Assembly (NCBI GenBank): GCA_034231615.1
Contig: CM067311.1
Location: forward strand, 23,691,967 to 23,755,966
Direction: 5' to 3'
DNA: 64,000 bases
DNA from: Meghimatium bilineatum
Lineage: Eukaryota > Mollusca > Gastropoda > Stylommatophora > Philomycidae
The notes under the pieces are model-generated. The model saw only the letters and a program-made list of their open reading frames with translations, was not told the DNA's origin and did no database searches. Positions within the stretch are counted from its first letter, which is position 1. Each line of letters starts with the position of its first letter. Position numbers and translations under genes: made by a program. Positions 2,795-57,083 of this stretch are shown piece by piece.

Positions 2795-5700
2795 CTTGTG
2801 ATGGATGAACAGCTTGTGATGGATGAACAACTTGTGATGGAGAAACAGCTTGTGATGGATGAACAGCTTGTGATGGAGAAACAGCTTGTGATGGACAAAC
2901 AGCTTGTGATGGATGAACAGCTTGTGATGGATGAACAGCTTGTGATGGAGAAACAGCTTGTGATGGACAAACAGCTTGTGATGGATGAACAGCTTGTGAT
3001 GGAGAAACAGCTTGTGATGGATGAACAGCTTGTGATGGAGAAACAGCTTGTGATGGATGAACAGCTTGTGATGGAGAAACAGCTTGTGATGGACAAACAG
3101 CTTGTGATGGAGAAACAGCTTGTGATGGACAAACAGCTTGTGATGGATGAACAGCTTGTGATGGATGAACAGCTTGTGATGGAGAAACAGTTTGTGATGG
3201 AGAAACAGCTTGTGATGGATGAACAGCTTGTGATGGAGAAACAGCTTGTGATGGACAAACAGCTTGTGATGGAGAACCAGCTTGTGATGGACAAACAGCT
3301 TGTGATGGAGAAACAGCTTGTGATGGAGAAACAGCTTGTGATGGATGACAGCTTGTGATGGACAAACAGCTTGTGATGGAGAAACAGCTTGTGATGGAGA
3401 AACAGCTTGTGATGGAGAAACAGCTTGTGATGGATGAACAGCTTGTGATGGATGAACAGCTTGTGATGGAGAAACAGCTTGTGATGGACAAACAGCTTGT
3501 GATGGATGAACAGCTTGTGATGGATGAACAGCTTGTGATGGACAAACAGCTTGTGATGGACAAACAGCTTGTGATGGAGAAACAGCTTGTGATGGAGAAA
3601 CAGCTTGTGATGGATGAACAGCTTGTGATGGAGAATCAGCTTGTGATGGACAAACAGCTTGTGATGGTTGAACAGCTTGTGATGGATGAACAGCTTGTGA
3701 TGGAGAAACAGCTTGTGATGGACAAACAGCTTGTGATGGATGAACAGCTTGTGATGGATGAACAGCTTGTGATGGACAAACAGCTTGTGATGGACAAACA
3801 GCTTGTGATGGAGAAACAGCTTGTGATGGAGAAACAGCTTGTGATGGACAAACAGCTTGTGATGGAGAAACAGCTTGTGATGGACAAACAGCTTGTGATG
3901 GACAAACAGCTTGTGATGGAGAAACGGCTTGTGATGGACAAACAGCTTGTGATGGATGAACAGCTTGTGATGGACAAACAGCTTGTGATGGACAAACAGC
4001 TTGTGATGGAGAAACAGCTTGTGATGGACAAACAGCTTGTGATTGAGAAACAGCTTGTGATGGAGAAACAGCTTGTGATGGATGACAGCTTGTGATGGAC
4101 AAACAGCTTGTGATGGATGAACAGCTTGTGATGGAGAAACAGCTTGTGATGGACAAACAGCTTGTTATGGATGAACAGCTTGTGATGGATGAACAGCTTG
4201 TGATGGAGAAACAGCTTGTGATGGATGAACAGCTTGTGATGGAGAAACAGCTTGTGATGGATGAACAGCTTGTGATGGAGAAACAGCTTGTGATGGACAA
4301 ACAGCTTGTGATGGAGAAACAGCTTGTGATGGACAAGTAGCTTGTGATGGATGAACAGCTTGTGATGGATGAACAGCTTGTGATGGAGAAACAGCTTGTG
4401 ATGGAGAAACAGCTTGTGATGGATGAACAGCTTGTGATGGAGAAACAGCTTGTGATGGACAAACAGCTTGTGATGGATGAACAGCTTGTGATGGATGAAC
4501 AGCTTGTGATGGACAAACAGCTTGTGATGGAGAAACAGCTTGTGATTGACAAACAGCTTGTGATGGATGAACAGCTTGTGATGGACAAACAGCTTGTGAT
4601 GGACAAACAGCTTGTGATGGAGAAACAGCTTGTGATGGACAAACAGCTTGTGATGGAGAAACAGCTTGTGATGGAGAAACAGCTTGTGATGGATGACAGC
4701 TTGTGATGGACAAACAGCTTGTGATGGATGAACAGCTTGTGATGGATGAACAGCTTGTGATGGAGAAACAGCTTGTGATGGACAAACAGCTTGTGATGGA
4801 TGAACAGCTTGTGATGGACAAACAGCTTGTGATGGAGAAGCAGCTTCTGATGGAGAAACAGCTTGTGATGGAGAAACAGCTTGTGATGGATGACAGCTTG
4901 TGATGCACAAACAGTTTGTGATGGATGAACAGCTTGTGATGGAGAAACAGCTTGTGATGGACAAACAGCTTGTGATGGATGAACAGCTTGTGATGAATGA
5001 ACAGCTTGTGATGGAGAAACAGCTTGTGATGGAGAAACAGCTTGTGATGGATGAACAGCTTGTGGTGGAGAATCAGCTTGTGATGGACAAACAGCTTGTG
5101 ATGGTTGAACAGCTTGTGATTGATGAACAGCTTGTGATGGAGAAACAGCTTGTGATGGACAAACAGCTTGTGATGGATGAACAGCTTGTGATGGATGAAC
5201 AGCTTGTGATGGACAAACAGCTTGTGATGGACAAACAGCTTGTGATGGATGAACAGCTTGTGATGGACAAACAGCTTGTGATGGACAAACAGCTTGTGAT
5301 GGAGAAACAGCTTGTGATGGATGACAGCTTGTGATGCACAAACAGTATGTGATGGATGAACAGCTTGTGATGGACAAACAGCTTGTGATGGACAAACAGC
5401 TTGTGATGGATGAACAGCTTGTGATGGAGAAACAGCTTGTGATGGACAAACAGCTTGTGATGGATGAACAGCTTGTGATGGATGAACAGCTTGTGATGGA
5501 CAAACAGCTTGTGATGAACAAACAGCTTGTGATTGAGAAGCAGCTTCTGATGGAGAAACAGCTTGTGATGGGGAAACAGCTTGAGATGGATGACAGCTTG
5601 TGATGCACAAACAGTTTGTGATGGATGAACAGCTTGTGATGGAGAAACAGCTTGTGATGGACAAACAGCTTGTGATGGATGAACAGCTTGTGATGGATGA

Positions 5701-6659
5701 ACAGCTTGTGATGGAGAAACAGCTTGTGAGGGAGAAACAGCTTGTGATGGATGAACAGCTTGTGATGGAGAATCAGCTTGTGATGGACAAACAGCTTGTG
5801 ATGGATGAACAGCTTGTGATGGATGAACAGCTTGTGATGGAGAAACAGCTTGTGATGGATGAACAGCTTGTGATGGATGAACAGCTTGTGATGGATGAAC
5901 AGCTTGTGATGGACAAACAGCTTGTGATGGACAAACAGCTTGTGATGGAGAAACAGCTTGTGATGGAGAAACAGCTTGTGATGGACAAACAGCTTGTGAT
6001 GGAGAAACAGCTTGTGATGGACAAACAGCTTGTGATGGACAAACAGCTTGTGATGGAGAAACAGCTTGTGATGGACAAACAGCTTGTGATGGATGAACAG
6101 CTTGTGATGGAGAAACAGCTTGTGATGGACAAACAGCTTGTGATGGAGAAACAGCTTGTGATGGACAAACAGCTTGTGATGGAGAAACAGCTTGTGATGG
6201 AGAAACAGCTTGTGATGGATGACAGCTTGTGATGGATGAACAGCTTGTGATGGATGAACAGCTTGTGATGGAGAAACAGCTTGTGATGGACAAACAGCTT
6301 GTGATGGATGACAGCTTGTGATAGATGAACAGCTTGTGATAGATGAACAGCTTGTGATGGACAAACAGCTTGTGATGGATGAACAGCTTGTGATGGACAA
6401 ACAGCTTGTGATGGATGAACAGCTTGTGATGGATGACAGCTTGTGATAGATGAACAGCTTGTGATGGAGAAACAGCTTGTGATGGACAAACAGTTTGTGA
6501 TGGATGATAGCTTGTGATGGATGAACAGCTTGTGATAGATGAACAGCTTGTGATGGACAAACAGCTTGTGATGGATGAACAGCTTGTGATGGATGAACAG
6601 CTTGTGATGGAGAAACAGCTTGTGATGGACAAACAGCTTGTGATGGATGAACAGCTTGT
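2795..6659. repeat. 3.9-kb satellite of about 214 18-bp units
   Basis: Unit is gatgga-NNNaaa-cagcttgt with three main classes: 'gatgaa', 'gagaaa' or 'gacaaa' in the variable half. On the plus strand this reads M-D/E-E/K-Q-L-V. About ten 17-bp units ('gatggatgacagcttgt') shift the frame, for example near 3345, 4083, 4694, 4891, 5322, 5591, 6222 and 6310. Marker units with 'gatgcacaaacag' occur at about 4900, 5331 and 5600, showing a larger duplication layer. The long open frames on both strands are artefacts of an 18-bp period without stops. Confidence 0.97.
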
Positions 6660-6687
6660 GGTTAAAAGTTGTTTTTTTTTACAATTT

Positions 6688-8227: not shown

Positions 8228-8760
8228 TTTCTGTTAGTTAGTTAGTTAGTCATCGGATCATCATCACTGCAAACTGGACACGTCCATAGTTGCTCCGATC
8301 TCTCCTTGGGTGTATCCGCCATTACACCTTTGCTGACAGTACCGGCCCTATGCTGGTTGACCATCATTCTTCTGCGTCCTCCAAAATGTTTACTATTAGC
8401 AACACCGCATGTCAATCTCTGATCTTTAATCCTAGCCATTGAAAAGGAATCATCATCCACATTAGTCTCACTCTCGTGTGTTATATTTGTTAAGGAATCC
8501 AAAACGTCAGCTCGATCCATTGCTCCATCGCCCTGTGTCACAATTGCGCATGCTGCCAGTTGATCCGCTCTTTCATTGTCTCGAACGCCCACATGTCCCG
8601 GCACGAAAATAAATGTAACCACTTTCAGGCTCGCCTTTCTCAAGGCCTCAATCCACTGTTCGCGAACGAGACCAATTCTTTCTGTGCTTTCGTTAACTGC
8701 CAACGCAAAGTGAACAACAATCAGCCCCCAGCCCCAGATGGTGACTCAGCAAGTAGGATT
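8228..8760 (-). mobile_element. LINE RNase H C-terminal fragment with (CTAA)n tail
   Basis: A 153-codon minus frame (8703-8242) reads 'FIFVPGHVGVRDNERADQLA', the last catalytic block of a retrotransposon RNase H. It is followed by 'MVNQHRAGTVSKGVMA' and a Cys-containing end 'LWTCPVCSDDDPMTN'. The 3' end runs into four to five TAAC units. The first catalytic Asp and Glu blocks are missing, so the copy is 5'-truncated. A sister copy lies at 28297-29046 in the opposite orientation. Confidence 0.88.
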
Positions 8761-11999: not shown

Positions 12000-12149
12000 T
12001 TTGATAGGCATCTTGTGGCTTTCTTATTGATTTTATCCGTTGATGTTTATGATAGTACGTGATCGATATATCTATATGGTCATCGGTAACGCCATCATTG
12101 ATTAGCTGATGTGCGTATTATTTGCTGGTATCCCACAGTGACAAGGTAC

Positions 12150-12535
12150 ACCTCAAAGAATGCTGCGCAAGATAGAAAAGTGTATGATCAGAACTGAATG
12201 GGTCACTCTTCTCGACAATGCGCAGAGCATTACATGGATTTACTGTCCTGGTCATGCTGGGGTCAGGGGAAACGAAAGATCCGATGTGTTGGTTGGTAAG
12301 GCGTTGATGAACGGCATCGAGATAAGAAGAAACAGGATTGAATTTATTAGAGCAGTCATGGATACCCTAAGAGAAGATGAGGAGGAAGTCGAACGTTACA
12401 ATGTACATATTCAGAGAATGATAGAAATGGGAGTGACTAGAGTCGATGGGAGGAAGTGCTCCCTCTCCGGAAAGATCAGAAGAACGCGTAATCAGCAACT
12501 GACTGGGACACTGGGACAAAATAATTTTTGAAGAC
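12150..12535 (+). mobile_element. LINE RNase H C-terminal fragment
   Basis: The 123-codon frame at 12160-12531 contains 'WIYCPGHAGVRGNERSDVL', the final RNase H catalytic block with its His and Asp. A Lys/Glu-rich segment follows with no Cys-rich end. It is 5'-truncated and sits head-to-head with the minus-strand LINE at 11350-12141. Confidence 0.85.
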
Positions 12536-16447: not shown

Positions 16448-16453
16448 TTTATT
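16448..16453 (-). terminator. Candidate poly(A) signal AATAAA
   Basis: AATAAA on the minus strand, 186 nt after the stop codon at 16640-16642. It is correctly placed for the end of a terminal exon. Such hexamers are frequent in AT-rich DNA, so the placement is the main support. Confidence 0.5.
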
Positions 16454-16639: not shown

Positions 16640-17940
16640 TTATATGAATCTGATATTCGGTACTGTAGATTCCGTATGAAGCAGAGATGTCGCGTTTTCG
16701 TCTGAAAATAAATTCAAAAGAGCGAATGGACTTTTCATTGAGGTATTGTCGGTGTCATCCTCAAAGTTTGAGGACATGGACAAATCTATACTCGATAATT
16801 GAAGTGGTGATACCAAAGAATGGACGGAACTGATCCTTGACCAAGCTGGAGAAATGTCACAGTACGAGAGATCTGAAGATGCGGGGCTCGGCCTTTCTTG
16901 TAGAGAGTTTTCTGAGTCTGTGTATGAGTTGTGTCGAATTGTATTTCTTTGATTATTGTGTTCCGTGAGTATTGAAAGTTTAAACCGGGACATACAATCT
17001 ACATATGTATTGTTATTTTTAGATTGAATGTCTGTTCGTGGAAATATTAAATCTTGGTCTGATTGCTGTTCCTCTTTTCTGTCCATGGATTCTGTTTCAA
17101 AATTGTCCAAGTCAACAAATGACTCTAAATCTAAAGATGGCGTAAAGTAGCTGTTGCTGTTTGATGTTTCGGAGAGATTTGTGGCACACACTCTGTTTGC
17201 AACATTATCGTTGTTGTTATATTGTTGTAAGTCTTCTTGCTGGCCTTCGCTAAGCCACGTCATGACGTCAACTGTCTCCCTGTCTAATCTCCCGTGATCG
17301 TCATCCTCCATCATAATTTCCAGAGTGTCATCGGGAGATTGGACAGATTTAGAAAACCCATTTAGAGTTGTATCGATGAATAAAGGTGACATGACTATAT
17401 CCAATGTTTTATCGATTGTGCATTCGCCGTTATTTGAACGTTCTTTACTCGTAACCAAATTACTTGGACATATCCTGACAGTTTCTTGGTGGGGAGGATG
17501 GGCAGTCGAGTAGACAGCTTTGAAGACACTTTCAAATTTTAGACACGAGCACTGCCTCGTAGGTATCACATTGTTCGTAAACGCATCTTTAGCATCAAAA
17601 TTTGAAGATCTATAACAATTTAGGTCTGCTGTAGTTTTATCTACCAAACTGTTGGAGCTGATGGAGGACGATGGTGGTAGAGATATCGAGGACGAAGACC
17701 AACTATCATCACTGTTTGTGTTTTCTTGTGTTGGTCTTAGATCAAGTATTGCTAAAAACTGTTCTTTGTTGAATATCACCGCATCTGAAGCGTGGGATTG
17801 TTGACTGCTGCATGTGGAGGTTTTGTCGTTAGCGGAAGGGTATGATTGCTCCAGAGCAGAATCAATGAAATCTTGAAAGCTGTCCTCCATGGTGACTTCA
17901 CAGCATGGGTCAAGGCCATCTAAACCGAAGTTCAAGTCAT
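16640..17940 (-). CDS. Host gene, terminal exon: acidic Ser-rich protein of unknown family
   Basis: Terminal coding exon, spliced to 26813-27182. The acceptor is 'tttttatttacag' ending at 17941. Exon 2 begins with AT, which completes a codon opened by the last G of exon 1 (phase 1), giving '...DFLIDL-D-DLNFGLDG...'. The combined product is 556 aa, of which this exon supplies about 433. It is rich in Ser, Asp, Glu and Asn and low in basic residues. I see no zinc finger, bZIP, bHLH or homeodomain. Acidic-hydrophobic patches recur: 'DDLNFGLDGLD', 'DSFQDFIDSAL', 'DVMTWLSEG', 'LESFVDLDNFE', and 'SPFALLNLF' near the end, as in transactivation domains. A run of SP dipeptides ('SPASSDLSYCDISPAW') suggests phosphorylation. 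It carries no repeat or transposon signature, unlike everything around it. A nuclear regulator is only an inference. Confidence 0.75.
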
Positions 17941-18065
17941 CTGTAAATAAAAAGGTAAACTCTAGTTTTGAAACGATGTAAAAATAATTAAACATTACTC
18001 AAAATTGTAAAATAAGATAATTGTATGTAATATTTGTTCATAATTTTACATTTAAAAAATAAATT

Positions 18066-18470
18066 GTGTCTCTTTTCTTACGTTCATCTTCTTTCTTACT
18101 TATTTACCCGCTGTCTTACGGATTAGCACGGGGGTGTCTTATGCTTATAGAGCGTAGCATTACAGAAATTCCCCACTGTCGGGTTAACACGGCAGTGCCT
18201 CGGGCCAAGGGTGCAAACCCTTATATAAGATTTGCAGAGAAGACACTACTATGGTGGATGGTGTATTAAACCATCTTTTGCAGTTCTGCTTATTTCCAAG
18301 CGTTTTGACGTTGCCTTTCGCTTGGAATTAATCAACAGATCCGAGAAGGAGCTTGGGCAAGCAATCATGTGTCATAGAGACTATGTGACTCAACAATTCA
18401 ACTTGAAGTCTCATGGTCCAGTTGTAATTTTACACTGACATTGCTTTCTGAACGTCTGTAAAAACGGAAA
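18066..18470 (+). other. Possible old SINE or MITE, unclassified
   Basis: Ends 'cattgctttctgaacg', a 16-base match to the SINE-B 3' module at 26410 and 63640. The middle part is unique in the window. Two short open frames here have no homology that I recognise. Confidence 0.3.
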
Positions 18471-18479
18471 AAAGAAGCT

Positions 18480-18565
18480 ATCATCTAAAGTAAGGTGACA
18501 AATCACACCATCATCTAAACTAAGGTGACAAATCACACCATCATCTAAAGTAAGGTGACGAATCG
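18480..18565. repeat. 30-bp repeat, 3 copies
   Basis: Unit contains 'catctaaagtaaggtgac' and 'aaatcacacc'. Confidence 0.9.
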
Positions 18566-18579
18566 ATCATACTACAGTA

Positions 18580-18775
18580 CAGTAAACCAGAACTCGGGAG
18601 GCCAGTGATGTATTTAGAGTATAAAATAGTGTTATATTAACTCGGGGGATGGGGGGGACAGTGGTGTATTTGGAGTACAAAGTGGTGCTTTATTAACTCG
18701 TTCGATAGTGATGTATTTGGTACTTAACGGGCCAGAAAGACATGACTTGGCGGGCCACATTTTGCTCACCCCTGC
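18580..18775. mobile_element. Possible hAT-type non-autonomous remnant
   Basis: Ends 'ccacattttgctcacccctg', which read in reverse is the CAGGGGTGAGCAAAA... type of terminus common in hAT MITEs. Internally there are three loose copies of 'gtgatgtatttgg'. The left terminus is not identified. Confidence 0.45.
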
Positions 18776-18949
18776 CATAACCCTACATCACATAGAAAGA
18801 GATCCATTACTTAGAATTACTGGTGATTGAAATAAATAGACATATTGGAAAAGTTCAAGATTATTCTTTCTTATAGCTTTATACCCCCTTATGCCCTGCA
18901 GTTTAGGGTTCTCTTGTGATGATTCATATATGTTTGTTTTCGTTGACTC

Positions 18950-19200
18950 ATTTATTTCTGTAATCTATCGTTTGCAAGGTCTCCCCCTTGCTTTGTATCC
19001 ATCGTGTCTGTATAGTAATGCTTTTTGAGGGGCACTGATAGTTGTCTGGAAGCGTGCGAAAACCGCTTAATCTGATACACTTTAGAATTGTCATTGTGTT
19101 TGTTAGTCTTCTGGTGTTTTCGTTTCTGATTCTGTCTCTTATTGTTACTCTTATTTCTAACAAGTTCAAGATTTCTGGGGACATATATACAAATGGAAAA
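18950..19200 (-). mobile_element. LINE RT C-terminal fragment, decayed
   Basis: The minus frame includes 'RVTIRDRIRNENTRRLTNT', matching the conserved segment at 50870-50935. Stops and shifts elsewhere. Confidence 0.7.
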
Positions 19201-19371
19201 CAAAACATCCAGAACTGAACAAATGACCGTCTGTCAGAGTGCACAAATAAGATACAGATAGTGCTGGGGAATATATTGCAACCAACATTCTTTAAGGAGA
19301 AGACGCACAATCTGATAATAAAATTTGGATAGAGCAGCAAGTCTGATTTCAGTGCGTTGATAATCTATCGA

Positions 19372-19548
19372 ACCACCGCTAGATCTGCAGTTTAAGTGTG
19401 CCCTAAAACTGAACCCTTTAGTTAATGCCGTGTCACCGCTAGATCTGCAGTTTAAGTGCCCTAAAGCTGAACCCTTTAGTTAATGCCGTGTCACCGCTAG
19501 ATCTGCAGTTTAAGTGCCCTAATGCTGAACCATTTAGTTAATGCCGTG
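19372..19548. repeat. 57-60-bp repeat, 3 copies
   Basis: Unit starts 'caccgctagatctgcagttt' and includes 'tagttaatgccgtgt'. Confidence 0.92.
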
Positions 19549-20039
19549 TTGGTTGTACGCGGTTTAGTTTGAATATACTTTCTTCTAGACATATATTTTA
19601 TCCAGTTTAATATAGTTTCAGTATTGATTATAAATACGTACTTTTATACATATCTGCTCAAACGTAACAAGAAAAAAGGCCAAGGTCGCGAGAGTGACAC
19701 TCGGTTCAGTCATGCATTCAATACAAGCGGGCCAATGTCATATATTTATAGGCCTGTTGGTCACGGCAGCCATCAGATGAAAGTATCATGCAACCATATC
19801 TCTCAGATCAAACTTATTTTCATATTTAACACTCGTATGTCATCGTGTGCCTATCATTTGTAGTACAATCATATGACTCACTCGTGGACAGAGCTGTCAG
19901 AACACAGATGACGATAGGACAAGATGGAGGTTTATTGAGAACTATGCTCCGCCGGGAGAAGTGTAGATGGATACATAGGTAAACACACAGACACAGATAG
20001 ATCGATACAGTCATACGCATAACATATCGACAGACAGAT

Positions 20040-20248
20040 TCTTCTTCTTCTTCTTTCGTTCGCTAATAATGTCTATATCTGCAGTGTTGTTTCTTGTATA
20101 AATTGGACAGTGTTTTCCATTTCTTGTTTTGTACCATAAAATTTAACATTCATCGGTGTATCAGAAGGCCAGTATGTGCATCTTAATCTGTCATAGTTTG
20201 CACATTCTTGAAGGATATTTTCTGAAGTCTGGTTGACTTGTCCACAAT
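20040..20248 (-). mobile_element. RNase H LINE 3' end, 209-bp insertion with TSD
   Basis: Flanked by 'gacagacagat' at 20029-20039 and 20249-20259. On the minus strand it reads 'CHCGQVNQTSENILQECAN' and ends in a GAA tail, the Cys-rich C-terminus of the family intact at 44230-45085. Severe 5' truncation. Confidence 0.88.
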
Positions 20249-20327
20249 GACAGACAGATATATGTGTGTAGATAGTCAGACAGATATAGACAGACAGACA
20301 GATATAGTCAGACAGGCAGACAGATAT

Positions 20328-20373
<46 letters not shown>

Positions 20374-20400
20374 TAGATAGATTAGATAGTATATATGTAG
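20328..20400. repeat. (GATA)n microsatellite
   Basis: About 12 GATA units grading into 'gattagatagatt'. It lies just downstream of the 20040-20248 insertion's TSD and upstream of the 30-bp array. Confidence 0.9.
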
Positions 20401-20409
20401 GTAGGCAGG

Positions 20410-20995
20410 CTGTTAGAGGTATATATGCAGGCAAGTAGAGGTATATATGTAGGTAGGCAGGCAAGTAGAGGTATATATGTAGGTAGGCAGGCAAGTAGAG
20501 GTATATATGTAGGTAGGCAGGCAAGTAGAGGTATATATGTAGGTAGGCAGGCAAGTAGAGGTATATATGTAGGTAGGCAGGCAAGTAGAGGTATATATGT
20601 AGGTAGGCAGGCAAGTAGAGGTATATATGTAGGTAGGCAGGCAAGTAGAGGTATATATGTAGGTAGGCAGGCAAGTAGAGGTATATATGTAGGTAGGCAG
20701 GCAAGTAGAGGTATATATGTAGGTAGGCAGGCAAGTAGAGGTATATATGTAGGTAGGCAGGCAAGTAGAGGTATATATGTAGGTAGGCAGGCAAGTAGAG
20801 GTATATATGTAGGTAGGCAGGCAAGTAGAGGTATATATGTAGGTAGGCAGGCAAGTAGAGGTATATATGTAGGTAGGCAGGCAAGTAGAGGTATATATGT
20901 AGGTAGGCAGGCAAGTAGAGGTATATATGTAGGTAGGCAGGCAAGTAGAGGTATATATGTAGGTAGGCAGGCAAGTAGAGGTATATATGCAGGTA
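20410..20995. repeat. 30-bp minisatellite, about 19 nearly identical copies
   Basis: Unit 'gcaagtagaggtatatatgt' plus 'aggtaggcag'. Most copies are identical. The GTAGGTAG and TATA content suggests origin from the adjacent tetranucleotide tract. It is open in both directions because 30 is a multiple of three; the apparent 200-270-aa proteins are artefacts. Confidence 0.97.
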
Positions 20996-21115
20996 GACGG
21001 ATGTTGATTGAGAATTTAATGCATTAAATGCCTGATTGTGGGCGTCTTTGATGACAGAGACGCAAAAAGGCGACAAAAGGTCATGCATCCGCGACCATAG
21101 TTAGCTCTCAGCGTA

Positions 21116-21420
21116 GTGACCAGGACAGGAACCAGTTCTCTTGTACGGTTGGCCGACCATACTACCAATATGGTTACAGAAACAAAAGCTGAATGTGTTA
21201 GTTTTCACGGAAAGCTGAACTTTGTTGGTCATATAAAGAGATATAAAAGCATGGAAAGACTAATAGCAGAAGGCAGAGTAAACGGCAGCAGGGGAAGAGG
21301 CCGCCCAAGACGACGATGGATAAATGATATATCTGACTGTTTAAACATGCCCCTGGTGGAGACAAGTCAATTCGCCCAAGATCGCGAGGTGTTCAGGAGG
21401 TTCATAAAGAAGACTACGTT
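21116..21420 (+). mobile_element. LINE RT C-terminal fragment
   Basis: Reads 'KLNFVGHIKRYKSMERLIA' and 'GRVNGSRGRGRPRRRWIND' (partial motif), the GHI...GRxRGRPRxxW signature that follows RT in many non-LTR elements. A SINE-like 3' module follows directly. Confidence 0.82.
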
Positions 21421-21545
21421 CTGGAAAGAATCATTTCCGTTCTCTGGACTACATCCTGCTATGAAATCGAATACGACCCACTGTCCTGAGAGTGAGACAG
21501 GTGGGAATTCAGGCGGAAGTTCAAGAATGAACACAAACAACAAAA
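21420..21545 (+). mobile_element. SINE 3' module fragment
   Basis: 'tccgttctctggactacatc' followed by 'ctatgaaatcgaatacgacc', as in the 26.5-, 40.2- and 43.7-kb copies. No head is present. Confidence 0.6.
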
Positions 21546-22139
21546 AATTGCCGTTATTATTTTCAGTTAAAAATATAAAAGTACGTTTGAAAATAATACA
21601 TTTTTAAAAAGTCAAACGAAATAATGGCTATTGTTCCAAATATAAATTATTTGTTATAACCTCGGTTTCTTTGACTATATTCATATTGAGATCTTGTGCT
21701 AGCGCAAACAGCGAACCATCGACTGAAGAGTGATTACTCCTCGGGGCGATCCATATCTCCGAGTGATAAACACTAAATGATGATGATTTGAAGTTGATCT
21801 GACCTTTTCAAAACTATTCAAACCAGATTGTCTTTCCATGTATTGATCCGGTTTTCGGTTGAAGAGAGTAGACTCGGCAACTATTACATGGAGATTACTG
21901 TCTGCATTGACGTGACATCCAGGTCACTAAGACATTTTTGTGATAGCGTATGTAAATGGAGGGGGGGGGGGTTGAGAGGTTGGACTGGATAAAGTAGGTG
22001 GGGGTTCAAACATGTTGTCAGCATTTACGTGATGTGACTTTCGAAAATAGAAAATCTACGAGCAGAATCAAAAACACACCTTTTACTTTATGTTGTCTAT
22101 TATTCCCGTGCATTTTGCTGGACGGCGTTGGCAGGTTAT

Positions 22140-22450
22140 ACATAGTGACGTGGTGCTATCATTTGTGATATCTCTGTGTGATTGTACAGTATTTTCTGTG
22201 ATGTCTCTGTGATTGTACAGTATTTTCTGTGATGTCTCTGTGTGATTGTACAGTATTTTCTGTGATGTCTCTGTGTGATTGTACAGTATTTTCTGTGATG
22301 TCTCTGTGATTGTACAGTATTTTCTGTGATGTCTCTGTGTGTTGTACGGTATTTTCTGTGATGTCTCTGTGTGATTGTACGTGTCGCTAGAATATGTGAT
22401 GTGTCCGTGTGACGTGATGCTATCATCTGTGATGTCTCTGTGTGATCAGT
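22140..22450. repeat. 31-33-bp minisatellite, about 9 copies
   Basis: Unit 'gtgatgtctctgtgtgattg' plus 'tacagtattttct'. Edge copies are diverged. Confidence 0.92.
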
Positions 22451-22654
22451 ATTCATCAAATGATGTGTAGGTTTTTGTAAAATCAATAACTAGTGCAGTA
22501 TTTATCCTTGCTAATGTCTATCTATTTTACCCGTCCATTTCTTTTTCTATTTGTACTTGTCCACGGTTCCTCTAGGAAGACTCCACAGACCCCCACGGTT
22601 CCACGGACCACCATTTAATAATAGCTATTCCATGGGATACAAACATTACACGTA

Positions 22655-23296
22655 CACATAAACTCATAACTCATCAGTGGGTCGTAGACTACCACACATA
22701 AACACATAACTCATCAGTGGGCCGTAGACTACTACACATAAACACATAACTCATTAGTGGGTCGTAGACTACCACACATAAACACATAACTCATCAGTGG
22801 GCCGTAGACTACCACACATAAACACATAACTCATCAGTGGGCCGTAGACTACTACACATAAACACATAACTCATTAGTGGGTCGTAGACTACCACACATA
22901 AACACATAACTCATCAGTGGGCCGTAGACTACCACACATAAACACATAACTCATCAGTGGGCCGTAGACTACCACACATAAACACATAACTCATCAGTGG
23001 GCCGTAGACTACCACACATAAACACATAACTCATCAGTGGGCCGTAGACTACCACACATAAACACATAACTCATCAGTGGGCCGTAGACTACCACACATA
23101 AACACATAACTCATCAGTGGGTCGTAGACTACCACACATAAACTTATAACTCATCAGTGGGTCGTAGACTACTACACATAAACACATAACTCATCAGTGG
23201 GTCGTAGACTACCACACATAAACTCATAACTCATCAGTGGGTCGTAGACTACCACACATAAACTCATAACTCATCAGTGGGTCGTAGACTACTACA
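22655..23296. repeat. 40-bp minisatellite, 16 copies
   Basis: Unit 'aacacataactcatcagtgg' plus 'gtcgtagactaccacacata'. Variants (gtc/gcc, cac/ctc) are distributed in a patchy way. Confidence 0.97.
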
Positions 23297-23514
23297 ATGG
23301 ATGCGTCAACGCATAGACCTCCAGCGATTTATGTCTTCAGCGATGCGGATGAGTGTGGAAATACCTTGGCATGTGCGCTGATTGTAGTATTTATGTGGGT
23401 GCCAAGTTTAACTGGCGGCGCCCAACTCCTCTCCAATCTATGTTAATGTCTCGTACAAACGACACAAAACCATCAGTAATGTAGATTTCCTCTGTTTATT
23501 CTATTGGTTGTTAG

Positions 23515-24115
23515 ATATTTTGATTATCCTCTCTGCACACCGGCCATGTCCATATGTACTCAGATCTTCGCTTTAGTAAATATCTCAGGGTATATCGGCT
23601 GATGGTTCCGGCTCTATGTTAGTTCACTGTTCTTTTAAAAATCTTTGTTAGGTGTTCTCTACGGGTCACGCCTATCCTCCTCCCAACTAGCGCATTCTCG
23701 ATATTGACTCATGCTCATTTATCTCAAAAGCATGTGATCGTGCGGACTCACGAAGAACAATGCGTATGTCTGTTCGGTCCATAGGCTGACCATCTGTTAT
23801 GGTGGCGATGCTAGATAATTGGTACTTTTTGCTCCACGCCCGCATGTCTGGAGACAACGATAAGCGTGAGTTTTTGCAGTGAGGCCCGCATTTTAGCTCT
23901 CTAATGACTCCCCCTATCCCCTACATACATCACCTGTTTTGACTTTCTGAAACATATTCATTGAGTCACTTAGTATGTACGCATGGGGATATGCTTGGAT
24001 TCCAGCCAGTTAAGTGCCTGCGTTACGGCAAACACTTCCATTGTTAGACTGCCTGTTGTTCTATTAGTCATATCGCAGTGCTAGATCTGCAAGTTTGTCG
24101 CCAACCTTCAGTCTT
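23515..24115 (-). mobile_element. Degenerate RNase H LINE copy
   Basis: Minus-strand similarity to the 28297-29046 family: the C-terminal end near 23520-23560 and upstream RNase H blocks to about 24110. Many stops. Much older than the copies with intact TSDs. Confidence 0.6.
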
Positions 24116-24312
24116 TTTCCAAGTCATGGCTACGGCATCACAGAGTTCCGTACATCTCACCAGGGGTTTATTACCACAGATTAAAAAAAGGTAACAATTG
24201 TCTACCCCCAGGTGGTGTTGTCATAGCTTTCACACTTGGCTTTGAACGTAGGGGGTTTTGTGAAGGAGGTGTAGTTACTTTCCAGAGTCAGATGTGTATA
24301 TAGGCCTTAATG

Positions 24313-24443
24313 GTTAGTGCTCGCGCGCACTAAAGAACTCGTATGGTGTGAGCACATGTCTTTACGAGAGCACCAAGGTAAATATTCTCGTAAAAAGCAT
24401 GTTCACGCACTATACGAGTTAAAAAGTGCGCACGAGCACTAAC
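24313..24443. mobile_element. 131-bp foldback MITE
   Basis: Two arms of about 58 bp, starting 'gttagtgctcgcgcgcac' and ending 'gtgcgcacgagcactaac', are near-perfect inverted repeats around a ~10-bp centre at about 24378. The whole element would fold into one hairpin. No convincing TSD was found. Confidence 0.8.
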
Positions 24444-24444
24444 G

Positions 24445-25120
24445 ATTACATGTGGACTGTGCTCGTCGCCTGAATAGGTTAAGGACCCCTTTTTACAGCT
24501 TTGCTGCGATATCGCACTAAACACCTAAAATATCAAATGACTAATGTAGAAAAAATGAGAGATTCTAATCGAGAGATTAAAAATAAGGCGCGGATAAATA
24601 AACGACCTAATCAGAAACATCATCTGCAGAAAAAAGAGTAAACACATTAAAAAAAAACCCCAGTGATAACACGCTTGATTCATATTATCTATGGACGTGT
24701 CAGGTGTGCATTGATAATGATCTGACGTCTAGAATTGTTTCCGTTAAACATCATTTAATCTTCAAATAGTCTGTAAGTACAATAACGTGTTCTTTTATAT
24801 CTAGCTAGCTAGCGACATCGACAGCTTCTTAAGCGTTTCAATAAAAACCTTCATTTTTAGAAAAATGTATGCGTATGGCATCACGATCCGTTTTTTCCTA
24901 ATGCAAGCAAGCTCGTAAATAAATGATATGGGCGGGGTTTAGGGAAAGGAAGGGATTCAGTCCCCCCTCTCCAGTTTGGAAATCAGAACACTACATTTAG
25001 TACTAATAAACACACTAAACATACTAGCAGATTCCTTCCCCCCTCCACATACCAAAATTTTAAGAAGTGATAACGAAAAAAAGGGAAAGGGGGGGGGGGC
25101 TTTTGCAGAAGAAGTATCTA
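24445..25120. other. AT-rich intronic spacer
   Basis: Contains poly-G runs (about 25090-25100) and no supported gene or element. Confidence 0.5.
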
Positions 25121-25129
25121 CAGTGTGAC

Positions 25130-25610
25130 ATATTTACAACATCTGATAGTTTACATCTAGCTGTCCACAACATTTGATAATTTACACCCGGCGGACCGCA
25201 ACATTTGATCATTTACATCCCCGCGTTTCGCAACATTTAATAATGTACACCCGAATATCTGCAACATTTGATAATTTACACCCGGCGGACCGCAACATTT
25301 GATAATTTACATCCCAGCGGTCCGCAACATTTGATAATTTTCATTCCTAGGAACCGCAACATTTGATAATTTACACCCGACGGACCGCAACATGTGCTAA
25401 TTTACATCCCGACAGTCCGCAACATCTGCTAACGACCGACAGTCCTCAACATGTGGTAATGTACGTCTCGACAGTCCGCAACACAAGGATAATTTACATC
25501 TGTCTGCAACATTTGATAATTTACATGTAACATTTGATAATTTACACCCTGACGGTCTGCAACATCTGATATTTACACCCGACAATACACAATGTCTAAC
25601 AATCGACGGT
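25130..25610. repeat. Degenerate ~31-bp minisatellite
   Basis: Repeats of 'caacatttgataatttacac' plus 'ccgacggaccg' with frequent substitutions and indels, about 14 copies. More diverged than the neighbouring 30- and 40-bp arrays. Confidence 0.88.
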
Positions 25611-25679
25611 CAAAAACAGAAAACTAACAACCAACTGCTAACAGAGAATATGCTGATTCGTAGATCTCAAGATGTTAGC

Positions 25680-25795
25680 TAATAACAATTAATCACAATA
25701 ACAATTAATCATAATAACAATTAATCATAATAACAATTAATCATAATAACAATTAATCATAATAACAATTAATTATAATAACAAGTATTAATTAG
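25680..25795. repeat. 15-16-bp repeat, about 7 copies
   Basis: Unit 'aataacaattaatcat'. Confidence 0.93.
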
Positions 25796-25804
25796 AAATA
25801 GCAG

Positions 25805-26095
25805 CCATGGTCGTGTAATGTTAAGCCGTTTGCTCGCTAACCAGCTGACTCTGGTTTCGAATCCATTGGTCATTCGTGGTCTGAAATAAAAAATGACTCC
25901 CGTGAATCGTCCAGCCAACAGGAAGTAAGGTTACTAGAGATTATGCTCTGGGAAGGCCGAGGAATTGCGTAATCGCTACTGAGCAAGTGCTGTAGATGAC
26001 GTTATTAAGCCGGTCTATAATCATCCACTGACTAGACAGTTGAGAGCAGTTATGGGAAACCCATGTGCTAGGATGGTGGTCCATAACGCATATTA
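25805..26095 (+). mobile_element. tRNA-derived SINE, family A
   Basis: The head has a B-box-like 'ggtttcgaatccattgg' preceded by an A-box-like 'taagccgtttgctcgctaac'. The body contains 'cattcgtggtctgaaataa' and 'agattatgctctgggaa'. The homologous copy is at 61275-61535. Copies are diverged from each other and probably old. Confidence 0.72.
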
Positions 26096-26334
26096 CTTTT
26101 ACCTTACCTTTTAATCTGCAAAGTTTTGGACACTTGGTTTTATTTTCGTGGATCGCATGGACACATCAAATATACCTCTTCCCTTTTCTATATTGACTTG
26201 TTTAGCCAAGCCACAGGGCTGTAGCCTACTATCAGGACCAACGCCTTGAATGTTCAGTCATGATACACAGACTTCCATCTCCTACATTTCCACATGGGGG
26301 GGGGGGGGAATAACAATTGAAGGTGTATCCTATT

Positions 26335-26440
26335 TAGGGCGTAGCCATTACCTCCGCGTTAATTTTTTGGTTGTAGTGATTTTCTATGCAATATAAATAG
26401 GTTCTGCATTGTGCCATTGCTTTCTGAACGGTACGGGTGC
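26335..26440 (+). mobile_element. SINE-B 3' portion
   Basis: 'gtagtgattttctatgcaat' and 'cattgctttctgaacggt' match, in opposite orientation, the SINE at 63597-64000. The tRNA-like head is missing. Confidence 0.65.
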
Positions 26441-26529
26441 TCAAATGCATGTGGCCGGACTTTTCCACATATAGGGCATATATACCCACTTCATGCATAT
26501 TAGCCGCCGAAGACGGATATGTGAGGATA

Positions 26530-26660
26530 TTGTCGAAAAATAAAACGGCAACAAGACGTATTTATGTTCTCTCGACTACACCATACTGTAATTCTAATAG
26601 GAAAATGATCCTACTTACTACAAGAGAGATCCGGTAGTTTTGGAACGAACGCAAAAAATG
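26530..26660 (+). mobile_element. SINE 3' module fragment
   Basis: 'atgttctctcgactacacca' then 'aattctaataggaaaatgat' and 'agagagatccggtag'. Same dispersed module as 21.4 and 40.2 kb. Confidence 0.55.
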
Positions 26661-26812
26661 CATGTTTTATGTGAGCATGACAGCAGATATTTATGTAAGG
26701 GCACACATATTTGTTGTGTATGCATGTTTGTTAAAATCACAACATAAATAGAATGCATATTCGGTATAGTAATACACTATACAAAAAAAAAACAACCTTT
26801 GGCACAACCTAC

Positions 26813-27182
26813 CTAAGTCTATAAGAAAATCTACGTCCGTCGTTTCTGCTGGCACTTTCTCAAAATCAACAGCACAGCTACTTAACATTGCATCACCACA
26901 AGTATTGTTAGTGTAGTCAACAGTTTCTCTGCTGTAGTCGCTGTGTGTTGGCAGACCGTACTCCTGGTTACTCATGTGTGTCTTTAACACGTAATCGTGG
27001 TCCGGGTGTATTGCTGAAAGTGCATACGATGATCCTTGCACTGATCCCTTTCGTGACAACGGTGACAGCAGCGTTGATAATACAGACGTTGTTTTAGAAG
27101 GTTGTAGAATTGGCGCGAAGTGTGAAGAAAATGTCATAATATCCAGTGGGTCGAAGATAGTGTTGACACCGGGTGGAGCCAT
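26813..27182 (-). CDS. Host gene, first coding exon (residues 1-124)
   Basis: Starts at ATG 27182-27180 ('MAPPGVNTIFDPLDIMTFSS'). An in-frame TAA seven codons above the upstream TTG, with no splice acceptor between, supports this as the true start. Nothing upstream in this frame is an alternative ATG. The exon encodes 123 full codons plus one base, ends '...TDVDFLIDL', and is followed by donor G|GTAGGT. Composition is Ser/Thr/Pro-rich with a basic island ('PLSRKGS') and no signal peptide or transmembrane segment. Joined to 16640-17940 it gives a 556-aa protein. The junction itself forms an acidic-hydrophobic motif, 'DFLIDLDDLNFGLDGLD'. I do not recognise the family. An activator-type nuclear protein is my best guess, held weakly. 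Confidence 0.72.
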
Positions 27183-27418
27183 TAAAGATGTGTCGTCACA
27201 CGACAAAATTGTAACGAGATATTACTCATACCACGAATATGATGAAATTGGCGCAGCGTTCATCAGTCGTGCAGAAATGTGCGCAATTGATTTCTTGGGC
27301 TGGAAACTTCTTAGATCTAGCCTTGTTGTGTCTGGGTGAACTCAAAACATTTATAAGTTTTCTCGTTCAAAAAATGTATGTTTCTTATCAAAAACGATTA
27401 TTCGTTATAACAGACTCC

Positions 27419-27429: not shown

Positions 27430-28245
27430 AATCTTTAGTTAACACTGCCTCAATACGGTCTGTAGTTTTTACTGTATATAACTGACTCGGTATGTATTTT
27501 CCAGTTAATAGTTATTTCAGCGCGTTACATTCACATTTATCATTTACAGTCACTTTATATCTTCCCGCGGATAATTCCGTACAGAAAGCGCGCTCGTTTC
27601 ACAAGTGGCAAGGTATTTATATACTACCAGCGATAGCTTACCCACTCTCATCCAGCTGTTGCAATATTGTGTACGTCCTCTTTACCTCGGTCACAGGCAT
27701 GCGTTATAGTTTCCTGATCCAATTTTCATAATTTATTTTTTAAAGCCTCTTATCTCTGGAGACTTGCCAAACGAAACTTGCGTCCCTTGACATTGGGATT
27801 GTTTCGCCTTGTATCTTAGGGCGTGGTCCAAACCGCTATTGATAATTTGGGACAATATGATAGAGAGAGGTGTAGATTAAGTATTTTGTTTATCAGTAAC
27901 TGCGTTCTGTGGTCTATTTAATCACTGTTAGGGGGTGGCCTACATGCAACGTGTAAGTCAGGCGATAGATTGGCGGGCAAGTTTAGAATGACTGTTGGTG
28001 AAATGACGAAACACCACTCCGGACAAGCTCACAGGAGATATGTCTTGCCCAGTAAATATCAATGGTTATATGCATGTCGAAGGTTCCAATCGTTCGATGG
28101 TTAAACCGAGTGCCTTGTCAATTATAAGTCACGTGAACACATCCGGGATCATTATTCCGTGTCGATATTTTAGTTTCCCCCGTTTTTTTTATTGGCTGTC
28201 GACACAAACTATTGGACTACACCAAGTGACTGACCAGTGAACCTC
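27430..28245. other. Upstream region of the host gene
   Basis: No open frame with coding character and no repeat recognised. It includes GC-richer patches near 27570-27600 ('cagaaagcgcgctcg') that could be promoter sequence. Confidence 0.4.
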
Positions 28246-31850: not shown

Positions 31851-32060
31851 TTGTTTTACCTGGCCGCGATCTCACCAATTTTGAGAAGCACGGACGTAGA
31901 TAACTTATTTGATTGCGTATGTTCGTGACGAGATGTGTGCCAAGTGATTGTTTGTAGTTTGTGATACACTATTCTTCCACGTTGACTTCAAATTTGAGAA
32001 TATTTCCCATGATTCTATTATTAGTGTATGGTTTTTTTAATGCGCAGTAGTGATAATAAC

Positions 32061-32649
32061 AGTATCAATATCTTGGACACATAGTCACAAATGATGGCAG
32101 ATTTGAAACAGAAGTTAAAAGGAGAATAGGAATGGCTAAAAGTACCTTCAATGACATGAGGAAATTATTAATATCTAAACAAATTACAAACAAGTTAAAA
32201 ATGAGAATTATAAAATGCTACATCTATTCCATATTAATGTATGGCTCAGAAACATGGACACTAAATAAACAATTAGAAGACGAAATTGATGCCTTTGAGA
32301 TGTGGGTATATAGAAGAATAGGGAGAACATCATGGAAAGAGAAGAAAACAAATAAAGAGGTGCTAAAAACACTTAATATGAAGAAAGAACTACTAAGAGA
32401 AATAAAGATCAGGCAAATAAAATACTGTGGACACATTAAAAGACATGACACCCTATTGAAGACCTTACTTGAGGGTAAAGTCAAAGGGACGCGAGCAAGA
32501 GGTAGGCAGAGATACAAGTGGGAGAGTAACATTACACGATGGACAGGTTACAGTCTAGCAGAGTGCACCACCAAGACAAGAGACAGGAGATGTTGGAGAT
32601 ACGTTGCAGCCAACCTTCGTTGCGGAGACGGCACTTGATGATGATGATG
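32061..32649 (+). mobile_element. LINE-1T copy 1: 589-bp insertion with 12-bp TSD
   Basis: Flanked by 'agtgataataac' at 32049-32060 and 32650-32661. An open frame of 168 codons (32132-32638) covers the post-RT C-terminal domain: 'ILMYGSETWTLNKQLED', 'RRIGRTSWKEKKTNKEVLK', 'YCGHIKRHDTLLKTLLEGK', 'RARGRQRYKWESNITRW' and 'RDRRCWRYVAA'. The stop is followed by the 3' tail 'tgatgatgatgatg'. It is 5'-truncated, lacking the RT catalytic core. The open frame is coding relic, not a functional gene. Confidence 0.93.
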
Positions 32650-33107: not shown

Positions 33108-33656
33108 CATCATCATCATCAAGTGCCGTCTCCGCAACGAAGGTTGGCTGCAACGTATCTCCAACATCTCCTGTCTCTTGTCTTGATGGTGCACTCTGCT
33201 AGACTGTAACCTGTCCATCGTGTAATGTTACTCTCCCACTTGTATCTCTGCCTACCTCTTGCTCGCTTCCCTTTGACTTTACCCTCAAGTAAGGTCTTCA
33301 ATAGGGTGTCATGTCTTTTAATGTGTCCAAAGTATTTTATTTGCCTGATCTTTATTTCTCTTAGTAGTTCTTTCTTCATATTAAGTGTCTTTAGCACCTC
33401 TTTATTTGTTTTCTTCTCTTTCCATGATGTTCTCCTTATTCTTCTATAGACCCACATCTCAAAGGCATCAATTTTGTCTTCTAATTGTTTATTTAGTGTC
33501 CATGTTTCTGAGCCATACATTAATATGGAATAGATGTAGCATTTTATAATTCTCATTTTTAACTTGTTTGTAATTTGTTTAGATATTAATAATTTCCTCA
33601 TGTCATTGAAGGTACTTTTAGCCATTCCTATTCTCCTTTTAACTTCTGTTTCACTG
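33108..33656 (-). mobile_element. LINE-1T copy 2: 549-bp insertion with 7-bp TSD
   Basis: Flanked by 'agtaact' at 33101-33107 and 33657-33663. Inverted relative to copy 1 and about 97% identical by eye. Its 168-codon frame (33625-33119) is also open. The 5' truncation point differs from copy 1 by about 40 bp, so they are independent insertions rather than a duplication. Confidence 0.92.
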
Positions 33657-33799
33657 AGTAACTAGGGCGTTCTAATTGCCTCGTCATGCTCTATGCGGTC
33701 CACGCCACTGCGATGAGAATCAACTTTTTACCCATTGTGACAGCTAGTGGCATCATCCGCATAGCTCATCAAGACCAATCTTCACATGCTTGGGTAAGC

Positions 33800-44229: not shown

Positions 44230-45085
44230 TCTTCTTCTTCTTTCGTTCACTTGAAACATGTCTATATCTGTAATTCTGTCTCCTTAATAAAACTCACTGT
44301 CTTTTGTAGTTCATACAGTGTCCCATAGAGTTTTGATTCCAGTGTTGTTTCCTCTGGCCAATATGTCTGCCTCAGCGTTTCATGCTCAGAACACTCTTGA
44401 AGTATATGTTTGGCACTCTGTGCTGCCTGTCCACATGTACACATGGCTGTGTTGCCAATCTTGAACTTTGTATACATGTGACTGCGGAGTCGGTTGTGTC
44501 CTGTTCTGAGACGTAGAATTATAACTTGTTCTGGTCTGTTCATAATATGATAGTCATCTTGTGTTGGTGTTTGTGGCTTTCTTATTGACTTGATCATCTG
44601 TTTTTTCTGATGGTAGGTGATTGGTATATCTGGTTGGTCTTCGGCAGCACCTTCCTTAGCCAGTTGGTCTGCTTTTTCATTTCCTGGTATTCCACAGTGA
44701 GAGGGTATCCACTGCATGGTTACCCTATACTGGTAAGACAATTCACTAAGTAGTTTTTTCAAGTCTGTTAGTTTTTCAGACTGGAGAGCTTGAAGCACTG
44801 ACCTTGCATCTGTCAGGAATACCACAGGCTGTAGGTCAGAGTTGGAGTTCAGCAGTTTTTTAGCTGCCACACTAATTGCCTGGATTTCTGCATCATAATT
44901 ATTGCAGAATTTTCCTGTCGGTGTTCTGATTGTATCTCTAGGCTTGTGTGGATATTCTATATATACACCTGCACCTCCATTCCTCACGGCATTCTGTGCT
45001 GACCCATCTGTGTATAATCTGACCCATATATCTTGTGGATATTCCTCATCCAGGAAACTGAGGGTGACTGTCCTTCGCTGCACAC
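44230..45085 (-). mobile_element. Young RNase H LINE insertion, intact 273-codon RNase H frame
   Basis: 856-bp insertion flanked by the 12-bp TSD 'gggaaagacaat' at 44218-44229 and 45086-45097. The minus frame 45083-44262 is uninterrupted. RNase H catalytic residues by position: D26 (YTDGS), E66 (DAEIQAI), D92 (LTDARS), H129 (SHCGIPGNE) and D139 (KADQLA). A linker 'ILRLRTGHNRLRSHMYTKF' follows, then a Cys/His cluster 'CTCGQAAQSAKHILQECSEH', the end 'YELQKTVSFIKETELQI' and a GAA-repeat tail. The RT is absent through 5' truncation, so it is non-autonomous. The frame begins with non-native residues and is a relic, but its integrity indicates recent insertion. Confidence 0.92.
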
Positions 45086-45204
45086 GGGAAAGACAATAAA
45101 AACATCAATATTTACAAATAGAACATGCTAACAATAGTCGATTGTCTCGTTGTTAATATGTTTAGTTTTAAATACTGGTAACACTTATACATTTTGCTGT
45201 TGAT

Positions 45205-57065: not shown

Positions 57066-57083
57066 AATATTTAATCATTTATC

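Follow-up and report, generated by a model that had tools for sequence, protein, structure and literature searches.

A constrained two-exon gene pair in a land slug, probably left by genome duplication, encoding an acidic and apparently disordered protein

INTRODUCTION

A genome duplication in land snails (Stylommatophora) has been published, as stated in PMC12328838, where Liu 2021 and Chen 2022 are cited for the stylommatophoran whole-genome duplication and Lissachatina is described as being without Hox1B. The present analysis deals with a 64,000-nucleotide stretch of Meghimatium bilineatum DNA (the window), which lies at positions 23691967–23755966 of contig C14 in an assembly of 1.612 Gb and 32 contigs, and with a minus-strand gene of two exons that it carries. 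This gene, called A here, has a twin, called B, on contig C22. The two are probably an ohnolog pair left by the stylommatophoran duplication on homeologous chromosomes, and their product is best read as an acidic, apparently disordered regulatory protein.

Acidic-hydrophobic patches with a certain spacing of leucine and phenylalanine residues are typical of activation domains. An earlier note, made from the letters of the window, had described repeated acidic-hydrophobic patches resembling activation domains in the product of gene A and had proposed a functional, uncharacterized host gene.

RESULTS

Structure of gene A

Splicing of the two exons of gene A (Table 1) in phase 1 with GT-AG borders, the acceptor being TTTATTTACAG just before 17940, yielded a frame of 556 codons that ends at 16640. 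When five exon-1 ends (26811–26815) were tried, only 26813 read through. Both exons lie exactly where they were placed in the earlier note, which had joined two minus-strand segments 8.9 kb apart by GT-AG sites of matching phase. The in-frame stop that it reported upstream of the ATG lies directly before the exon-1 frame, which opens at 27221 right behind this stop and reaches the ATG after 13 sense codons, and the AATAAA that it placed 186 nt past the stop was also found. The stop-free run of exon 2 comprised 452 codons. Dinucleotide shuffling of the 12 kb around it, done 100 times, gave no run above 193 codons, and the longest run in 20 shuffles of the whole window was 165.

Twin gene B with the same layout

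When the assembly was searched with exon 2 of gene A (E limit 0.001), the query recovered itself and one other locus, the stop-free exon 2 of gene B (C22:26185847–26187142, E 3e-42). Exon 1 of gene B was located by a local search of the C22 stretch (E 0.004) together with its open frame; it lies 3.3 kb upstream of exon 2, and the intron measures 3332 nt. The layout is the same in both genes, with two exons, a common intron position and phase, and a common C-terminal end, and exon 1 of gene B stops at the same aligned residue as that of gene A, in the same phase and donor context (TTAG/GTAGGT). The two proteins, of 556 and 531 aa, are identical at 184 of 485 aligned residues (38%), and the N-terminal start of A is recognizable in B (M.P.G.NT; MVPHGANTFSDIFM). 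With E values of up to 10 allowed in the assembly, exon 1 of A matched only one sequence beyond itself (E 3.2), and exon 2 of B matched only two stop-containing sequences beyond A (E 1.5 and 4.2).

In the C22 stretch carrying gene B (L005:2142–2219), the codon that matches the start of A begins a frame of 15 codons whose phase differs from that of the main frame. The long frame of B begins at an ATG 77 nt beyond this codon, which may reflect a shortened N-terminus or a short open frame upstream, unless the assembly is in error there.

Selection on the gene pair

A pairwise codon model of A versus B (485 codons) gave a ratio of nonsynonymous to synonymous rates (omega) of 0.18, with a 2.5–97.5% range of 0.04–0.25 in 40 bootstrap resamples and twice the log-likelihood difference (2 delta lnL) against omega = 1 amounting to 97; these values are rough because the synonymous divergence (dS) is saturated at about 3.5. 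In the same columns, frame-shifted controls gave 1.75 (440 codons) and 1.90 (409 codons). Since omega was 0.18 against 1.8–1.9 in the shifted frames, both copies are under purifying selection, and the direction is clear despite the roughness of the estimate. By region of A, omega was 0.42 in exon 1, 0.51 in residues 125–244 (fitted with several starts and narrower bounds), 0.20 in 245–330, 0.10 in 331–470, and 0.04 in 471–556. The proposal of a functional host gene is thus supported by a paralogue of the same structure and by an omega well below 1.

Chromosomal context of the two copies

A homeobox scan listed 142 matches (150 of 252 candidates were scored), 12 of which were compared for C14 and C22, among them every match on these contigs (two on C14 and three on C22); 5 of 37 forkhead matches were compared, including the single one on each of these contigs. 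The other compared matches were chosen for similar scores, and partners elsewhere are possible. The labels POU3-, POU4-, FoxO-, Hox-, and paired-type used below are gene names that we take to apply. A POU3-like pair on C14 and C22 was 95% identical over 231 residues, and a FoxO-like pair on the same contigs was 85% identical over 138 residues. Hox-like genes occurred in two sets, with seven compared on C17 and six on C25; three of the seven had a C25 partner at 92–98% identity over about 62 residues, while the best matches of the other four among the six reached 51–81%. The POU3-like and FoxO-like pairs on C14 and C22 and the Hox-like sets on C17 and C25 are consistent with the published land-snail duplication. 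Each Hox-like set includes a Hox1-like gene (C17:6.52 Mb and C25:7.08 Mb).

Composition, conserved segments, and predicted structure

The 556-aa product of gene A is acidic and serine-rich, as the earlier note had described it, with an isoelectric point of 4.3, 15.3% Ser, and 9.9% Asp. Conservation between A and B was focused on three places, namely A 245–330, A 383–419, and the C-terminal 31 residues, and the six Cys/His residues of the first block (C254, C256, H271, H274, C281, and C297) were all kept across the two sequences. Among aligned residues, Cys was kept in 8 of 11 cases, Trp in 3 of 3, Leu in 23 of 41, His in 5 of 11, and Tyr in 2 of 13, compared with 38% overall.

Acidic-hydrophobic windows were defined with self-chosen thresholds as 39 residues with a net charge of −9 or lower and at least seven W/F/Y/L. 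In A, 46 of 518 windows qualified, against a shuffled mean of 6.2, and about 1% of 200 shuffles reached 46. The numbers of [ST]xx[DE] sites in the two copies, counted without a shuffle control, were 24 and 18. With a two-sequence input, AlphaFold placed zero residues at a predicted local distance difference test (pLDDT) score of at least 50, with means of 28.7 for exon 2 and 35.7 for the core. This would fit a largely disordered protein, but an alignment this shallow makes it weak evidence.

Family and database searches

Gene A gave zero matches in Pfam with E values of up to 10, its two exon frames gave zero in NCBIfam, and the PDB sequences contained no significant match. Gene B matched Pfam zf-C3H2C3 weakly, at E 0.57 and with 10.7 bits where the cut-off is 27, and A did not. 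In these libraries, as in the earlier note, no DNA-binding domain was recognized and no family could be assigned. Two further matches were taken as chance: an HSP70 fragment (E 0.66), which was the sole PDB match of a two-row exon-2 profile of A and B, and a PHROG match in A (E 0.007), which was absent in B, where a different PHROG matched at E 0.29. Four conserved peptides of the pair were looked for in the literature and occurred in no paper, and a search on orphan genes and land snails had nothing on gene A among the 8 of 25 matches listed. None of the libraries covered here assigns the pair to a named family, and it may already figure as an uncharacterized protein in public snail annotations.

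Upstream region and feature coordinates

A non-coding block is common to the upstream regions of A and B (Table 1). Its distance to the ATG is about 960 nt in A, and in B it stands about 1220 nt ahead of the first ATG; it holds CACGTGAC in A and CACATGAC in B. When the upstream sequence of A was shuffled 200 times, the block's score of 33.1 bits was never reached, though the best shuffle came close at 31.6.

Table 1. Features of gene A in the window (minus strand; residue numbers refer to protein A)
Feature	Position	Strand	Details
Exon 1, coding part	26813..27182	(-)	123 codons + 1 base; start MAPPGVNT; donor TTAG/GTAGGT
Intron	17941..26812	(-)	phase 1, 8872 nt, GT...AG, many tandem repeats
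Exon 2	16640..17940	(-)	2 bases closing the split codon + 432 codons + stop; end ...VPNIRFI, stop
AATAAA polyadenylation signal	16448..16453	(-)	starts 186 nt 3' of the gene A stop
Conserved block, residues 245-330	17321..17578	(-)	VIPT..CSCL...VYSTAH..HQ..VRICPS...C...TLDIV.SPLFID; 53% identity with B over 81 aligned residues
Conserved acidic-hydrophobic patch DLESF[VI]DLD.F, residues 394-404	17099..17131	(-)	15/25 aligned residues identical in A 383-407
Conserved C-terminal segment KS..ALL.LFS.ENA.SLL.....VP..RF, residues 526-556	16643..16735	(-)	within the lowest-omega stretch (0.04, A 471-556)
TATA-like motif TATATAAATA	27614..27623	(-)	441 nt 5' of the ATG; candidate, 1 of 5 TATA[A/T]A matches in the upstream 1 kb
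Non-coding block, core TCACGTGACTTATAATTGACAAGGCACTCG	28107..28141	(-)	common to A and B upstream regions, 36 alignment columns, E 6e-4

Surroundings of gene A

The earlier note regarded gene A as the only credible host gene in 64 kb. This held for the nine other frames scanned against Pfam, which are part of the 57 window frames of at least 120 aa, many of them tandem repeats; three matched RNase H (one over the curated cut-off), one matched DUF1132 below the cut-off, and five had no match. Across 264 kb, comprising the window and a 200-kb flank on C14, 449 filtered frames were listed, and inspection of the 70 longest by eye revealed no other recognizable host gene. Rfam at gathering scores and ARAGORN with the bacterial code returned zero RNA families and zero tRNAs in the window.

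The RNase H pieces lie at 44262–45104 (−, E 1e-16), 8242–8745 (−, E 9e-5), and 12142–12531 (+, E 7e-5), the last two below the cut-off, and probably belong to retrotransposons. Two frames at 32060–32638 (+) and 33119–33661 (−) look near-alike by eye and stand inverted about 0.5 kb apart; the former gave the sub-cut-off DUF1132 match and the latter no Pfam match, and we take both to be retrotransposon-like. Minisatellites occupy 2795–6660, where an 18-bp unit is repeated about 215 times and yields very long repetitive open frames, and 57082–60014, where a 47-bp unit is repeated about 62 times. Outside the window, a 315-aa transposase frame, presumably piggyBac-like, was present at C14:23597658–23598602 (−), with its first 200 residues matching DDE_Tnp_1_7 (E 1e-22).

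DISCUSSION

The structure of gene A, its paralogy with B, and the constraint on both were observed directly, and it is near-certain that A is a real, functional protein-coding gene of two exons in a land snail or slug (Stylommatophora). An origin of the pair in the genome duplication is well supported. The pair is of a known kind, that of a fast-evolving, apparently disordered regulatory protein retained as ohnologs. As to the role of the protein, a co-regulator of transcription is the likeliest, at slightly better than even chances. It would act as an adaptor or co-regulator whose short acidic-hydrophobic segments (at the exon junction, DLESF.DLD.F, and the C-terminal ALL.LFS.ENA.SLL) may bind coactivators. 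The Cys/His block (CSC...H..H..C...C, then TLDIV.SPLFID) would be a partner- or metal-binding site and may recruit the protein to a DNA-bound factor.

Several observations pull against this account. In gene B, the frame opened at MVPHGANTFSDIFM, the counterpart of A's start, closes after 15 codons. The sensitivity of the genome search was limited, as a query with exon 1 of A did not recover its counterpart in B. Besides the saturation of dS, constraint was marginal in exon 1 (omega 0.42, 2 delta lnL 6.1) and in A 125–244 (0.51, 4.1). No DNA-binding or coactivator domain was found in A or B in Pfam and PDB, or for A in NCBIfam, and the AlphaFold result rests on two sequences, which leaves disorder unproven. 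The activation-domain resemblance is the weak point of the earlier note: such windows are enriched in A, and in B the 9 of 493 windows are no excess (23.5% of shuffles reach this number); those of B sit at roughly corresponding places to A's. A pattern scan for basic clusters found no classical nuclear localization signal (NLS) in A or B, although other routes of nuclear entry are possible.

The proposed origin also meets difficulties. The homeology of C14 and C22 is indicated by two linked pairs only, the POU3-like and the FoxO-like, and the second C14 homeobox had no close partner among the 12 compared (best 52%). Of 27 HMG-box matches, one lies on C22 and zero on C14. Moreover, C22 pairs with C15 too, through a POU4-like pair (95% over 154 residues) and a paired-type homeobox pair (87% over 79 residues), which suggests that C22 is a fusion or a mosaic, or has been otherwise rearranged. 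Gene B, at 26.2 Mb on C22, is closer to the C14-paired genes (3.6 and 14.6 Mb) than to the C15-paired genes (51 and 62 Mb).

Foremost among the alternatives is that A and B are a real pair encoding a cytoplasmic signaling adaptor or a kinase or phosphatase substrate, rich in Ser and acidic residues and with many CK2-type sites. We consider this possible but rather doubtful. The missing classical NLS, the [ST]xx[DE] sites counted above, the absence of a confident AlphaFold structure, and the lack of excess activation-like windows in B would all suit such a protein, but the acidic-hydrophobic patches were kept, and their Leu/Phe spacing resembles that of activation domains as generally known.

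It is quite unlikely that gene A is instead only the end of a known transcription factor, either a larger one or a diverged family member, whose DNA-binding part was lost or lies in unseen exons. The C-terminal ALL.LFS may resemble activation segments of known factors such as HSF1, and an exon-1 stretch of the type SSALS..(P/A)DH(D/N)Y may be akin to one in CREB3-type factors. However, a stop stands immediately upstream of the exon-1 frame of A, the N-terminus of A is recognizable in B, the ends of both proteins coincide in the alignment, and Pfam gave only the zinc-finger match of B at E 0.57, with none for A at E values of up to 10.

A secreted acidic protein of shell matrix or mucus is highly improbable: acidic Ser/Asp-rich proteins are frequent in mollusc biominerals, but a hydropathy scan, the only method applied here, found no hydrophobic signal or membrane segment, N-terminal or other, in either copy (top 19-residue hydropathy 0.88 in A and 1.42 in B). 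Chance open frames or a pseudogene would fit the repeat-rich surroundings, in which no nearby host gene was recognized, and the frame-shifted start region of B, but can practically be dismissed in view of a frame of 452 codons, where no shuffle exceeded 193, and of a twin of the same structure with an omega of 0.18.

Returning to the acidic co-regulator, we regard it as unlikely, though worth stating, that A and B found an undescribed snail co-regulator family centered on a novel metal-binding block (CxC - HxxH - C - C, then TLDIV.SPLFID), kept in duplicate since the land-snail duplication and diverging much faster than other regulatory ohnologs on this chromosome pair, the FoxO-like genes for example, as neofunctionalization would predict. 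What began as a guess from the letters of the window is now verified as a pair of genes that probably arose in a known genome duplication, and the conserved segments worth testing have been named. The pair provides a case of a duplicate that diverges fast yet remains constrained after an animal genome duplication, and the curation of land-snail annotations would benefit from it.

Compared with known systems, A and B share with acidic activation domains and with co-regulators lacking a DNA-binding domain (CITED- and CRTC-like) an acidic, Ser-rich, apparently disordered protein with short Leu/Phe-rich acidic patches; they differ from the CITED- and CRTC-like proteins in the missing Pfam match of A, the missing classical NLS, and the unfamiliar conserved Cys/His block. 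The conserved CxC, HxxH, C, and C resemble small zinc-binding modules of the zf-C3H2C3 type, whereas the match of B is below the cut-off and A has none; the Cys/His set is conserved in the two sequences, with neither a predicted fold nor an above-cut-off profile match, and zinc binding is putative. Hox1B is missing in Lissachatina according to PMC12328838, whereas a Hox1-like gene is present in both Hox-like sets here. Like other ohnolog pairs of the stylommatophoran duplication, A and B lie on two chromosomes sharing further duplicate pairs and have a common intron position. They differ in being 38% identical overall, compared with 95% and 85% for the sampled POU3-like and FoxO-like parts, a comparison that flatters the latter pairs because these parts include conserved DNA-binding domains.

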